Assembly: GCF_000373485.1 (NCBI RefSeq)
Contig: NZ_KB891586.1
Span: 324,734-388,733, forward strand
DNA from: Dasania marina DSM 21967
Lineage (GTDB): Bacteria > Pseudomonadota > Gammaproteobacteria > Pseudomonadales > Dasaniaceae
Length of the DNA: 64,000 nt
Direction of reading: 5' to 3'
The notes under the pieces are model-generated. The model ran no database searches and was not told the DNA's origin. It saw nothing but the letters and a program-made list of their open reading frames with translations. The number at the start of each line of letters is the position of its first letter. The first letter of the stretch is position 1. Positions 42,406 through 49,047 of this stretch are shown piece by piece. Position numbers and translations under genes: made by a program.

Positions 42406-43752
42406 ATGTTTAAAGTCACCTATATTACATGCATTATCTTATTCTCGTCACTTAGTCTAGCCGATGACAGCTATCTGTTTAAAATTTCCGGATCTAATAC
42501 TATAGGTGCGCATTTAGCCCCCGCCTGTGCAGTAGATTTTTTAAAAACCCAAGGTTTTACTGACCTGCAGATTAACAACAGCCCTAGAGACAATGAAAAA
42601 ATAATTACTGGCAACGACCGCCAAGGCCAAACACAGGCTATATTCATTGCCGCGCACGGATCCAGCACCGGTTTTCAAGCGTTACAAACCGCGGCCGCAG
42701 ATTTAGCCATGTCATCACGCCCCATCAAAGCCCAAGAACGGCAACGCTTGGCAGCATTAGGTGATTTACGCTCACCGCAGGCAGAGCACACCGTCGCCAT
42801 AGACGGGCTCGCGATTTTGCTTAACCGCAACAACCCTATTCAACAGTTATCGGTGCAACAGGTAGCCGCTATATTCTCGGGGGCTATCAGCAACTGGCAA
42901 GCATTAGGTGGCGCCAATTTAGCTATTAGTCTATACGCAAGAGATGAGCAATCGGGCACGTGGGATACCTTCAAAAACTTAGTATTAGGCAAACGCTATA
43001 CATTAGCGTCATCAGCGTTACGCTTTGAATCTAACGATCAGCTCTCCGACCAAGTAGCTCAAGACCCCGGTGCAATAGGCTTTACCGGTTTAGCGTCAGT
43101 ACGCAATAGTAAGTTGCTTGCTATCTCCGATGATAATACCCAAGCACTACTACCTGAGCGCCTGAGCATTGCCACAGAAGACTACCCACTCTCTAGGCGT
43201 TTATATTTTTACCAACCGCAAAACAATATAAAAAATGCCACTTGGGTGCAGCAGTATGTAGATTTCTGCCTATCTGAATCCGGTCAAAAGTTGGTAAAAA
43301 CAGCGGGATTTATTACCCAAAACATTATCGCGGTAGAGCAACCCCAGTATGACAACGCCCCCATCAGCTACTTGCAACTAGCCGATAAAGCCCTGCGCCT
43401 GTCGATTAATTTTAGATTTGATAATGGCAGCAGCCAATTAGACAACAAGGCCTTAAAAGACCTGGATAGGGTGAGCCAATTTTTAAACAAGGCCAAGTAC
43501 CGTAACCGCAATGTGTATTTAGTCGGATTTAGTGACAGCCACAAAAAACAAAAATACGACTTACTTATCGCCCACTTTAGAGCCCTAAGCGTGCAAGCTC
43601 AATTAATGAAGCAACAAATAGCTATAGCAAAGAGTTATAGCTTAGGCTCATTTATGCCAGTAGTCTCTAACAACAATCAGGCGGCCAAGCTAAAAAACTC
43701 TAGGGTTGAAATATGGATAGATAAAAAACAGCCTACGCCAACAACATTATAA
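42406..43752 (+). CDS. Phosphate-binding (PstS-like) protein fused to an OmpA domain
   Basis: 448 residues. Signal peptide (FKVTYITCIILFSSLSLA), PstS-like periplasmic binding domain (residues about 25-320; FKISGSNTIGAHLAP, DEQSGTWDTF), then an OmpA-like peptidoglycan-binding domain (about 345-440; INFRFDNGSSQLDNKAL). The binding protein would thus be tethered to the cell wall. ATG 42406 has AAAGGAG upstream and gives a clean signal peptide; ATG 42337 is rejected. Its Pho box suggests a role in phosphate scavenging, without Pst permease genes nearby. Its end overlaps the convergent next gene by 6 nt. Confidence 0.88.
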   Translation: MFKVTYITCIILFSSLSLADDSYLFKISGSNTIGAHLAPACAVDFLKTQGFTDLQINNSPRDNEKIITGNDRQGQTQAIFIAAHGSSTGFQALQTAAADLAMSSRPIKAQERQRLAALGDLRSPQAEHTVAIDGLAILLNRNNPIQQLSVQQVAAIFSGAISNWQALGGANLAISLYARDEQSGTWDTFKNLVLGKRYTLASSALRFESNDQLSDQVAQDPGAIGFTGLASVRNSKLLAISDDNTQALLPERLSIATEDYPLSRRLYFYQPQNNIKNATWVQQYVDFCLSESGQKLVKTAGFITQNIIAVEQPQYDNAPISYLQLADKALRLSINFRFDNGSSQLDNKALKDLDRVSQFLNKAKYRNRNVYLVGFSDSHKKQKYDLLIAHFRALSVQAQLMKQQIAIAKSYSLGSFMPVVSNNNQAAKLKNSRVEIWIDKKQPTPTTL

Positions 43753-46700
43753 CGATTTTAAAATATCTTCTGCCGACATAGTATGACTGTATAAATAGCC
43801 TTGGTGATAGTCACACTTATTTTCATCCAGAAACTGTAACTGCTGTTGAGTCTCTACCCCTTCAGCAACAACTTCAATATTTAAGTTATGCGCTAAATCA
43901 ATCAGAGCTGGCACTATTTTCTTATCCTGACTCGCACTGTCGGTGCCTTGAATAAAACATTGATCTATCTTTATACCATCTATGGGTAGGTCTCTTAAAT
44001 AATTTAACGCTGAATAGCCCAAACCAAAGTCATCCACAGAGAGATAAATACCCAATGCTTTTAAGCTATTTAATACCAGTGCCAAATTTTCAGGCTGGGC
44101 AATAATAATACTCTCAGCTATTTCTAGGTGTAAGGCTAACGCAGGCAGCTGATATTTTTGTAGCATGCTGGCTATATAAGCCACCGCCCCCTCACTAAAC
44201 AAAAAACTATGGCTAACATTGATACAAACCGGCATAGAGGGCGCCGGCCTATGCTGCTGTAAGGTGGCAGCAAAGCTACAGGCTTTATCCAACACCTGCT
44301 GTTCTATAGCCACTAAAAGCCCTAACTCTTCGGCGCTATCAATAAATGATTCTGGGGATAGCAAGCCTTGCTGAGGATGCTGCCACCTAAGCAAAGCTTC
44401 TACTGACACCATATTATGGTCGCAGCTCATGATAGGCTGGTAATGTAAAATAAACTCATCACGCTTTAGTGCCAGCCGTAAATCGCTGTCTATATGTAAT
44501 TGTTTGGCGCTATCGACTTGTAAATCTTTGCTATAAAATTGATAGTTATTTCGGCCTAGGCTTTTCGCTTGATACATAGCTAAATCGGCATTTTTCATTA
44601 GATCTGAAATCAATACACCATCATCAGGCACCATAGTGACACCTATACTTACAGTCACAACAACCTCTTCATTAGCGAGCTGTATAGGCTGGGATAAGGC
44701 GTTAATAATACGCCTAGCTATCGTATCGACATAGTCACGTTCCTTATTATTAATATTTTTTAAGATAATCGTGAATTCATCACCCCCTAACCTAGCCACA
44801 TTATCATTGGCATCAACACAGGAGGATAAGCGCTCCGCCACAGTAATAAGTAATTGATCACCGGCATCATGCCCTAAAGTGTCGTTGATAATTTTAAACC
44901 TATCTAAATCCAAAAACAGCAAAGCACAAGAGGCCTTACTATCAGCCATTTCTTCAAGTAAACACTCCAGTCCGTCTCTAAATAAACGCCTGTTTTCCAA
45001 ACCTGTTAATGTGTCGTAATAGGCCAGCTGTTCCATTTGTTGCTGATGGTTTTTATGCTCAGTGATATCTTCACAAACAGCGACAAAATGCGTTAAGCGA
45101 CCGATATCATCACGTATAGGTGAGGTAGACAACAACACCCATACATCATCACCATGCTTGGCATGCAGCTCTAACTCACCATGCCAGCTCTCACCACTAT
45201 CTATCGCCTGCAACATGGCACTGAAGTTTTTATGGCTGTGATCAGCCACTTTAATCTGATAAACATCACCACCCAGCAACTCACTTTCATCATAACCGGT
45301 CATAGCAATAAACGTGGGGTTAACATACTCTATATATTGTTTATTATTCACAATAAACACACCACTGGCGCTATGCTCTACCGCTCTAGATAACATCAAT
45401 AATTTATGCGCATCTTCTTTACGCTCAGTAATATCACATAGCACACCATGGTAATGACTTACCTCGCCATTCTTATCACGATGTATTTTGCTACGTTCCT
45501 CAATCCAGCGCCACTCGCCTGCTTTAGTAACAACCCTATATTCAACAGTGTATTCATTGCTATCTCTAGCATCCTCTGCCGCATTAATGATATCTAAATT
45601 ATATTGATAGTCTTCTTGAAATATTATTTTTCTATAGAGATTTTTATCTTGATAAAAATCTTCAGGACTGTAACCAAACTGAGCTATATTCTCTGAGATA
45701 AACTCTACGGGTGAATTGCTGCCAACGCCCCATTCCACCACAATAAAACGACTACCATTAATAATAGCGTCCATCTCCTCGCGCCGCTCAGCCAATGCCT
45801 TATAGCGCTGTTGCGATTTTTTTCTTTCATCATTCATAATCGCATGGGCCATAATATCGGCCAAACCACCGCAGACAGCTATCTCCTCATTACTCCACCG
45901 CCTCTTTTCACCTTTATGATCCAGATTAATAGCGCCCACCATTTTACCCTGCACACGTATCGCACTTTCCAATGTTGAAGAAATATTTTCAGGAATGTAA
46001 AATAGCTCAGCAAAAGAACTGGCCAAAGGGTCATTTAAGGTATCGTTAATAGCTACCGTACGCCTGCGCCTTAACTCAGTATAAAAAACATCATACAAAT
46101 CTGCATCATGAGAAAACTGCTGCAAATTTTCTTCATAGTAATCGCCCTCTAAAATGTAAGAGCTTAACAACCAAGCATGACGCCCTTCATAATCAAACAT
46201 CCATACACCGGCATTATAAACATTTAACAGCACTGCCATCTTCTTAGTTATTAAATCAGCAACCTTTTGCAAATTACCATTAATAACATCTTTGTGCGTC
46301 GCCAACTCAACCAACATTTCCTGTTTTTTTCTTAACCCTTCTCTAGCTTCTTGTGACCTTTTATCTTCTTCTATGCTCTCATTATTCATTAAAGCCTGAG
46401 TTATCTGATCACTCATACTAGAAACAAAAACAACTTCATCTTCGTCCCACAAACGTACTGTTTCACAATGTTCAACAGCCAATAACCCTAGGGTTTCACC
46501 CCGCACCCTAATAGCTACATCTATACCTGCAGTGATGCTTTTATCACGGATTAACTCGGCAAAACACATAGCTTCATTTTTATCTTTAGAAGAAGCATCA
46601 AAAATTATCTGCCTACCGGAGGTTAATAACTCATAATAGCCTGTAGAGTCTTTTAATCGATAGGGTTTATCTCTGTGATAATAACCTCTGGAGTTATCAT

Positions 46701-48801
46701 AACCTTGCTCGATATTGATATAACTACTTTCTTGGTCAAGCCACCACACTTCGGCTCGCTGACAACCCAATGCATCAACAACATTTTTGCATATCGCTTT
46801 TATTACCCCGCCAACATCCCCACTTGACAACTGCGAGCTAACAGCTATAGAAGAGAGTAAAATATTTTTATGATGCATTCTCGTTATTCGTTCCTGCTCT
46901 TGCTCTAATCGTAATATTTTTTCCTGCTCTTGTTGCCTATAGGATTTATTGGCTAGCATAAAGCCAATAATGTCAGCCACCGTACCATGAAATGCTATTT
47001 CATCTGCCGTCCACTCTCTAATATTTCCATAGTGCTCTACATTCAATATACCCACAATTTTTGCATGCAAACGTATGGCGCTATCCATAGATGAAGCAAT
47101 GCCATATACATTCTGCTCTTCATCTAAAAACTCCGAGGTCCTACTATCATTTTTCGCATCATCAGCGGCAATAGTTTTCTCTTTTTTTAATGATTTAAAA
47201 AACCGAGGGTAATTTTCTTGCGTATAGCTAACATCCACATAATGACGATTATTTGAACGCTCATAATAATCAACGCACGTAAGTTTATTAGCATCACTAT
47301 CACTGAGCCAAACACCACAACCTTCAACACCCAAGGTTTTGCTGACTAGTTCGTTAATATAATGTATCGCTTTTTCTACATTATTAGCGGCCACTATCCT
47401 GGAATCTAATGACAACTCGCTGACCACCTTTTGCAAATGGCCAGCATAAATAACTTGCTCGTTGATTTTTCTCTCGGCATCTTTAAGCTTTGAGTTAATA
47501 ATCAACTGCGACAGCTGTGCCGACAGCTCATGAACAACAGCTTCTTCATGAGGCTGCCAGCGATAGGAACTATCGCTTTTCTCTAAAACAAGAACTGCTT
47601 GTATATCACCGGCAATATAGACGGCACTTTCTAATACCGAAAAAAGCGTACCTTGATGTTGAAAAAGACCTTGGCATACCGATCTAGAATCAAACTCACT
47701 CGCCGCCACCTTCGACACCGAAGCAAGCTCGTGCATATACGTTAACGGGCATACCTCTTTATTAGCATTTCCAGCAGCTATATATTTTTTTCTTTTATTA
47801 TCATATCTGCCATCAAGACTGAAACATTGTTCCGCTTCATTCTTTAACCAAAAATTAGCTGCGGAAGCGTTAAAAAAACAAGCAATTTTCTTTAAGGTAT
47901 ATTTTAATGCCGAGACATAATAGCCCTGTCTAAAATCAGATTGATTAACCAACTCCATGATTAGTGCTTGCTGCTCTCTATCGCGCTGCTTCTGCAAGAT
48001 AAAGTCATCACTTAACAGCCTATACTGTTCGTTACGCAAAACTTCCGCCAACAGGACTGATATATGGCCATGAAAAGCGACTTCATCACTCGCCCATATG
48101 TGGTTAATCCTGCAATGCTCACTGCTCAGTATGCCAACAATTTCACCATCCACTTTAATAGGGCTATCCAGCGTTGAGGTGATGTCGTAACGCTCTATTT
48201 CTCCTGCGAACTCATGCTTAATTAAATTTGTGAGCGTCCCGCCTTCTTCCACCAGTGTTCTTACCTCTAATAAGTCAGAAAAAAACTGCGGATAATCATT
48301 GATGTGGTAATTATCTTCCGGGGCGTGACTTTTTTTACTCAGGGTGTATTCATCATGGGCAACCAGTAAGTCTTTTTCTTGGTTAAAAAACCAAACCCCG
48401 TTGTATTCGGTATTAAGCACTTCAGCCACGGCCTCAGTAATCAAGATTATAGCCTGCCGCGTATTACCGGTTTTAATATCAGGGTGCGTACTCAGGCGTT
48501 TGAGCACTTCATCTTGCTGACGCTCACGCTGCTGCTGTTTACTTTTGGGGCTATCCGACAGATTAAACTCTAAATCTAAGGCCTTGATAACCTGCAGCAC
48601 CTTACCCATCTCAACAGTAGACTTGCCGTTTTCCAGCTCGGATAAAAACCTAACACCCACATGACAAAGTTCTGCAACTTCAGCCTGCGTCAAACCTTTA
48701 GCTCTGCGAAAGGTTTGTATTTTTTTACCGAACTCAATAAAAAAGTGATCACTCTCAACGCTAGCGAGGCTAGATATAGTCATATAGCGGTCTTTACCCA
48801 T
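43747..48801 (-). CDS. HipB-like HTH - 5x GAF - 2x PAS - GGDEF - EAL protein
   Basis: 1684 residues, no membrane helix. Residues 18-80 are a HipB/Y4mF-type XRE DNA-binding domain (FGKKIQTFRRAKGLTQAEVA, RFLSELENGKSTVEMGKVLQ). Then five GAF domains (about 105-255, 285-435, 455-617, 645-805, 830-990) with a repeated motif of the type SAIRV-x-G-x2-VGxLxxEH, two PAS domains (about 1010-1128, 1135-1250), GGDEF (residues 1339-1343, intact motif) and EAL (1468-1470, with VAEGVET near 1645). Both c-di-GMP synthesis and degradation motifs look intact; usually one dominates. A DNA-binding domain on such a protein is rare. It could read several small molecules and act on transcription and c-di-GMP. The family partner (HipA toxin) is absent. 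Confidence 0.93.
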   Translation of the reverse strand: MGKDRYMTISSLASVESDHFFIEFGKKIQTFRRAKGLTQAEVAELCHVGVRFLSELENGKSTVEMGKVLQVIKALDLEFNLSDSPKSKQQQRERQQDEVLKRLSTHPDIKTGNTRQAIILITEAVAEVLNTEYNGVWFFNQEKDLLVAHDEYTLSKKSHAPEDNYHINDYPQFFSDLLEVRTLVEEGGTLTNLIKHEFAGEIERYDITSTLDSPIKVDGEIVGILSSEHCRINHIWASDEVAFHGHISVLLAEVLRNEQYRLLSDDFILQKQRDREQQALIMELVNQSDFRQGYYVSALKYTLKKIACFFNASAANFWLKNEAEQCFSLDGRYDNKRKKYIAAGNANKEVCPLTYMHELASVSKVAASEFDSRSVCQGLFQHQGTLFSVLESAVYIAGDIQAVLVLEKSDSSYRWQPHEEAVVHELSAQLSQLIINSKLKDAERKINEQVIYAGHLQKVVSELSLDSRIVAANNVEKAIHYINELVSKTLGVEGCGVWLSDSDANKLTCVDYYERSNNRHYVDVSYTQENYPRFFKSLKKEKTIAADDAKNDSRTSEFLDEEQNVYGIASSMDSAIRLHAKIVGILNVEHYGNIREWTADEIAFHGTVADIIGFMLANKSYRQQEQEKILRLEQEQERITRMHHKNILLSSIAVSSQLSSGDVGGVIKAICKNVVDALGCQRAEVWWLDQESSYINIEQGYDNSRGYYHRDKPYRLKDSTGYYELLTSGRQIIFDASSKDKNEAMCFAELIRDKSITAGIDVAIRVRGETLGLLAVEHCETVRLWDEDEVVFVSSMSDQITQALMNNESIEEDKRSQEAREGLRKKQEMLVELATHKDVINGNLQKVADLITKKMAVLLNVYNAGVWMFDYEGRHAWLLSSYILEGDYYEENLQQFSHDADLYDVFYTELRRRRTVAINDTLNDPLASSFAELFYIPENISSTLESAIRVQGKMVGAINLDHKGEKRRWSNEEIAVCGGLADIMAHAIMNDERKKSQQRYKALAERREEMDAIINGSRFIVVEWGVGSNSPVEFISENIAQFGYSPEDFYQDKNLYRKIIFQEDYQYNLDIINAAEDARDSNEYTVEYRVVTKAGEWRWIEERSKIHRDKNGEVSHYHGVLCDITERKEDAHKLLMLSRAVEHSASGVFIVNNKQYIEYVNPTFIAMTGYDESELLGGDVYQIKVADHSHKNFSAMLQAIDSGESWHGELELHAKHGDDVWVLLSTSPIRDDIGRLTHFVAVCEDITEHKNHQQQMEQLAYYDTLTGLENRRLFRDGLECLLEEMADSKASCALLFLDLDRFKIINDTLGHDAGDQLLITVAERLSSCVDANDNVARLGGDEFTIILKNINNKERDYVDTIARRIINALSQPIQLANEEVVVTVSIGVTMVPDDGVLISDLMKNADLAMYQAKSLGRNNYQFYSKDLQVDSAKQLHIDSDLRLALKRDEFILHYQPIMSCDHNMVSVEALLRWQHPQQGLLSPESFIDSAEELGLLVAIEQQVLDKACSFAATLQQHRPAPSMPVCINVSHSFLFSEGAVAYIASMLQKYQLPALALHLEIAESIIIAQPENLALVLNSLKALGIYLSVDDFGLGYSALNYLRDLPIDGIKIDQCFIQGTDSASQDKKIVPALIDLAHNLNIEVVAEGVETQQQLQFLDENKCDYHQGYLYSHTMSAEDILKSL

Positions 48802-48824
48802 ATTATTTTAATATCGATTACAAC

Positions 48825-48840
48825 TTACCCGTACGGGATA
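48825..48840. promoter_or_regulatory. Palindromic operator candidate before the HTH-GGDEF-EAL gene
   Basis: On the minus strand TATCCCGTACGGGTAA, with a perfect CCCGTACGGG core (48828-48837), 24 nt before the start codon. E. coli HipB binds TATCC-N8-GGATA; this site has similar half-sites with closer spacing. It fits autoregulation by the HipB-like domain. Confidence 0.5.
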
Positions 48841-49047
48841 ATTTTCAGTGTAGCAGTAGATAAGATATCTGTAGGAATAAAAGCTAAATAGCTACGGCGA
48901 CCTGAAAACACAGATAATAAGCAAGGTTATAGCGTTTTTTATTCACATTCCCGAATATCGCTGCACTCCACGCTTGTACACCTTAGCTTTTGGATAAACC
49001 GCAAGGCCTGCTAAACTACTTCAAAACATGCCACATCGGAACTTGTA

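Follow-up and report, generated by a model that had tools for sequence, protein, structure and literature searches.

The nearest precedent for the protein analysed here, in the following called the fusion, is PdeL (YahA), the trigger phosphodiesterase of E. coli, which likewise combines an HTH with an EAL domain and targets a palindrome in the promoter of its own gene (PMC5052742); for the fusion, action at such a site is predicted. PdeL differs in its LuxR-type HTH, in having neither a GAF array nor a GGDEF domain and in activating its own gene from a far-upstream site. The second group for comparison are the Y4mF/HipB antitoxins of hipBA (TIGR03070), which have the HTH family, the recognition-helix class and the operator class in common with the fusion. 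They are, however, small, stand-alone proteins that pair with HipA and often have two or three operators, whereas the fusion contains a large sensor/c-di-GMP part, lacks HipA and has a single operator. By analogy, the mode of action of the fusion would resemble that of PdeL and also that of an autorepressing antitoxin. For HipB of the Legionella HipBST system (structure 8ezt), gel shifts have proven binding to three evenly spaced operators, one of them 24 nt before the start codon (PMC10653801). Unlike the fusion, this is part of a tripartite toxin-antitoxin system, and its inverted repeats were reported to be unlike those of hipBA operons. In Streptomyces, the transcription factor BldD requires c-di-GMP for DNA binding (PMC4151990); such a control may be supposed for the fusion as well, although BldD contains no cyclase or phosphodiesterase domain. 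Inverted repeats at intervals have been noted for Caulobacter hipBA (PMC7029023). Among open papers, none on Y4mF operators was found, and a limited search of such papers yielded no description of an XRE/HipB-GGDEF-EAL fusion.

The fusion gene and its HipB-type domain

The window, i.e. the whole stretch of 64 kb that was analysed, contains an ORF for a protein with the domain order HTH-GAF array-PAS-PAS-GGDEF-EAL (Pfam; Table 1). The neighbours of this ORF are a PBP/OmpA-type gene in convergent and a 2-thiouracil desulfurase/DUF1722 gene in divergent orientation. An earlier reading made from the letters without database searches (the sequence-only reading) had described a 1684-residue HTH-GAF-PAS-GGDEF-EAL fusion, which the ORF call and the Pfam domains confirm. 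Its count of five GAF domains holds for four units, which exceeded the Pfam cut-off in a piecewise scan, and the second unit was weakly recognised (14.7 bits). In the orthologue of Dasania sp. GY-MA-18 (L031:1213-5499), which has the same neighbours as in the window, five GAF stretches score. Since the start of the orthologue aligns to ATG 48783 and not to the ATG of the longest ORF, the former is probably the start codon, which would give 1678 aa and make the longest ORF six residues (18 nt) too long at its N-terminus. Both the GGDEF and the EAL domain carry catalytic signature motifs, so that the fusion can be assigned to the GGDEF-EAL c-di-GMP proteins on sequence grounds. The inhibitory (product-inhibition) RxxD is absent from the GGDEF domain, with DAND in its place. 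The sister orthologue stops right after GGDEF and lacks EAL, and the same gene follows.

Table 1. Coordinates of the fusion gene, its domains and its promoter region in the window, and related loci.
Feature	Position	Strand	Basis or remark
Whole ORF	43747..48801	(-)	1684 aa / 1684 codons from first ATG
HTH_3 / Y4mF (HipB-type) DNA-binding domain, residues 28-79	48565..48720	(-)	Pfam HTH_3 E 4e-8; TIGR03070 63.7 bits
Recognition-helix region GVRFLSELENGK, RF class	48622..48657	(-)	alignment; helix/operator association
Five-unit GAF array	45787..48501	(-)	Pfam, whole and piecewise; second unit weakly recognised
Two PAS domains, residues 1034-1248	45058..45702	(-)	Pfam
GGDEF domain	44545..45024	(-)	Pfam E 1.5e-51; signature ARLGGDEF intact
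EAL domain	43783..44484	(-)	Pfam E 1.1e-67; signature motifs present; absent from sister orthologue
Candidate operator ATCCCGTACGGGTA	48826..48839	(-)	palindrome reported 48825-48840; conservation, matrix, motif match
Perfect 10-bp core CCCGTACGGG of palindrome	48828-48837	(-)	
Extended -10-like element TGCTACACT	48847..48855	(-)	sequence; conserved in orthologue; promoter assignment inferred
Conserved promoter-operator block, 37 nt	48821..48857	(-)	34/37 identical to Dasania sp. GY-MA-18
Paralogues	L028, L029, L030 (window genome); L032, L033, L034 (sister)		progressively decayed HTHs

The N-terminal HTH, in which the motif SELENGKSTVEMGKVL was found, has TIGR03070 (Y4mF family) as its best NCBIfam match, with the fusion (63.7 bits) and the orthologue (70.3 bits) not reaching the cut-off of 71.65. 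Its closest solved relative by sequence is the Legionella HipBST HipB (8ezt, E 9e-6). The comparison supports a HipB-type domain closest to the Y4mF/HipB antitoxin family and just below its cut-off, in agreement with the type first proposed. A profile search, for which a control search works, detected no HipA_C domain anywhere in the window genome; the earlier remark that no hipA is encoded nearby therefore extends beyond the locus. Lacking the HipA kinase, the fusion is not a hipBA module.

Three paralogues with the order GAF-PAS-GGDEF-EAL, of about 1000, 1000 and 1375 aa, are present in each Dasania genome. In the window genome the best NCBIfam match of their N-termini is also TIGR03070, at only 16-25 bits, and the operator site is absent from the three paralogues with decayed HTHs. 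No HTH-GAF fusion outside Dasania was found in a sample of 392 genomes of the order. In 369 genomes of the class, the open frames with HTH matches beyond the gene itself were about 80-136 aa long, and the matches outside the own genome in 399 genomes of the phylum were mainly HTH-only or GAF-only, with no other HTH-GAF fusion in either set; all three sets are samples, and distant fusions may exist. The same applies to a scan of public genomes with two narrow peptide patterns, which returned Dasania sp. GY-MA-18 as the sole match.

The palindrome at the promoter and the Y4mF operator class

Allowing ≤ 3 mismatches, the palindrome occurs once in the window (0.36 expected by chance), and with ≤ 2 mismatches at one further place in the genome. 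Its bare presence proves little; conservation and operator match carry the weight. The intergenic DNA of the two Dasania species is ~37% identical outside a 37-nt block, which contains the extended -10-like TGCTACACT together with ATTATCCCGTACGGG and is identical at 34 positions. Because it lies in such a block amid diverged DNA, the palindrome is, on this comparison, not a chance occurrence. The sequence-only reading had named missing conservation upstream of orthologues as evidence against its proposal, and the palindrome is kept in the one orthologue available. The distance to the start, given there as 24 nt, is 23 nt from the ATG of the longest ORF, with the real start probably 18 nt further in. 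Judged from the position of the -10 element, transcription would start near 48840 and the operator would begin within a few bases of +1. A transcript hairpin at the palindrome was set aside, as the stem would be 3 bp.

For comparison, homologues of the HTH were gathered and the upstream DNA (220 bp) was inspected for motifs. Stand-alone Y4mF-type hipB genes have TTMCCGNNCGGKAA upstream, often in 2-3 copies ~50 bp apart; 29 of 30 pairs, from a wide range of families (L071-L095, L129-L134, L145-L154), have a spacing of 48-51 bp. The core CCCGTACGGG is identical in the operators of L071, L072, L086 and L095, and HipA domains were confirmed downstream of L071, L075 and L095. The operator motif goes together with the recognition helix 'RFxSxLE', also present in the fusion: using the strict pattern, it was present at 28/36 RF-class and 0/9 non-RF loci outside Dasania (31/39 RF-class with three Dasania entries included), compared to 0.08 loci expected in shuffles. 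As the motif had been recognised on part of this locus set, the loci fetched after its definition are the cleaner test. Here, the motif was found at 12/14 RF-class loci and not at the single non-RF locus; this includes all five of L129 and L131-L134, and plasmid loci, most of them annotated hipBA operons, with 7/9 RF-class and 0/1 non-RF.

When the 64 kb were scored with a matrix derived from the stand-alone loci, the window site came first with 15.4 bits, ahead of a match with 11.0. The operator of the orthologue reaches 21.4 bits; a random 4-Mb sequence gave five matches as good as the window site, about 3e-4 per 250-bp region. An operator of the Y4mF family class is thus present at the fusion's own promoter. 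The resemblance to HipB half-sites claimed by the sequence-only reading applies to the Y4mF-type operator TTMCCGNNCGGKAA and does not extend to the E. coli K-12 HipB site, which has a wider spacing and which the window palindrome does not fit. Conservation in the orthologue and the motif upstream of stand-alone Y4mF hipB strongly support, as far as sequences can, a HipB-class operator with autoregulation; of the autorepression suggested earlier, the direction is read from the operator position. Against the operator model count the single orthologue, one operator versus the two or three often seen in hipBA promoters, the imperfect symmetry and the RF loci without motif. With GGGTA on one side, the window operator falls short of the symmetry of typical operators, and no second operator was found ~50 bp from it. 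Both its single copy and its imperfect symmetry in the window genome would suit a disused relic of an ancestral hipBA promoter, but the site was preserved while the intergenic DNA around it diverged, and we regard a relic as highly improbable.

The strict motif is missing from the 220 bp upstream of four RF-class hipB-like genes (L074, L076, L077, L078), which are unexplained exceptions.

Proposed binding and regulatory role

We consider it likely that the fusion, probably dimeric, uses its RF-class recognition helix to bind ATCCCGTACGGGTA immediately downstream of the -10 element, and that binding at this promoter-proximal operator represses its own transcription. The fusion would have arisen in the Dasania lineage, where a Y4mF/HipB-type antitoxin DNA-binding domain was joined to a GAF-PAS-GGDEF-EAL c-di-GMP protein; a matching operator lies at the promoter of the fusion gene. 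An antitoxin DNA-binding domain would thereby have entered second-messenger signalling and retained its operator class.

In the two Dasania genomes, no RF-class HTH other than that of the fusion was detected, and the other XRE-type matches examined differ in the helix. HTH and operator are co-conserved, being kept in the Dasania sp. GY-MA-18 orthologue despite the loss of EAL. Between the species, identity is 83% for the HTH, 93% for the recognition region, 80% for GAF5 and 67% for GGDEF, compared to 80-92% for GGDEF in the paralogues. Selection seems to favour the DNA-binding end, since the HTH and its recognition region are conserved while GGDEF has diverged and EAL is missing in the sister; sensing may also be of importance, because GAF5 is well conserved. 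Operator binding by the fusion being a prediction, a different regulator might occupy the palindrome and the fused HTH might serve elsewhere, e.g. in dimerisation; the paralogues, which keep HTH-like N-termini without an operator, indicate that the domain can persist without the site. This is nevertheless improbable, given that the site is of the operator type that goes with the fusion's HTH class, that no second RF-class HTH was detected in either genome and that no other part of the protein is as well conserved as the HTH.

If the fusion is the binding protein, autorepression is the most likely outcome because the operator is just downstream of the extended -10 element. Self-activation would follow PdeL, the nearest functional precedent, which activates its own expression (PMC5052742). 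We hold it to be unlikely for the fusion, since PdeL binds at a site located far upstream within the promoter region whereas the window operator is downstream of the inferred -10, and HipB-family proteins autorepress.

Both Dasania genomes were searched for further targets with the pattern WTMCCGNNCGGKWW; another pattern, TNMCCGNNCGGKNA, does not match the window operator. Among the WTMCCGNNCGGKWW matches of the two genomes there was no conserved intergenic pair and hence no conserved second target; apart from one beside a gene end (L125), the other matches fall inside ORFs. The predicted regulon is the fusion gene itself, as no conserved second target was found. A site common to L112 and L120 was rejected as a regulon target because it falls where a conserved coding sequence begins.

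AlphaFold modelling of HTH-GAF1 (mean pLDDT 86.5, 25 sequences) places a long helix between the HTH and GAF1. Long helices between domains are a usual route for passing on a sensor state, and the modelled helix would allow the GAF state to alter the HTH geometry. A Foldseek search with the model returned generic GAF and phytochrome structures and was uninformative. Tentatively, and in line with the control of DNA binding by ligand state or c-di-GMP turnover that the sequence-only reading had proposed, the antitoxin repressor domain and its operator class could serve as the output module of a c-di-GMP protein with several GAF domains, in which GAF/PAS ligands or c-di-GMP turnover gate binding directly and the enzymatic part is being demoted towards a sensor; the latter is suggested by the loss of EAL in the sister and the absence of the inhibitory site in both. 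It is a serious possibility, if short of probable, that the HTH simply represses its own gene, GAF ligands and c-di-GMP have no effect on DNA binding and the fusion sets the protein dose only. All HTH-operator sequence evidence fits such a simple autorepressor equally well, as does the lack of a second conserved target; the long helix in the predicted model and the high conservation of GAF5 speak against it, neither of them being a test.

For Y4mF HipB in general, the association gives a helix/operator rule, RFxSxLE paired with TTMCCGNNCGGKAA repeated every ~50 bp; from this rule, the regulation of many uncharacterised hipBA operons can be predicted.

Two HipB-like genes, L097 and L098, encode recognition helices in which PF replaces RF (SLPFLNGLEQGK, SIPFFNAIENGK), and another repeated palindrome, AACGATCRTT, is found upstream of them, which may represent a natural specificity switch.
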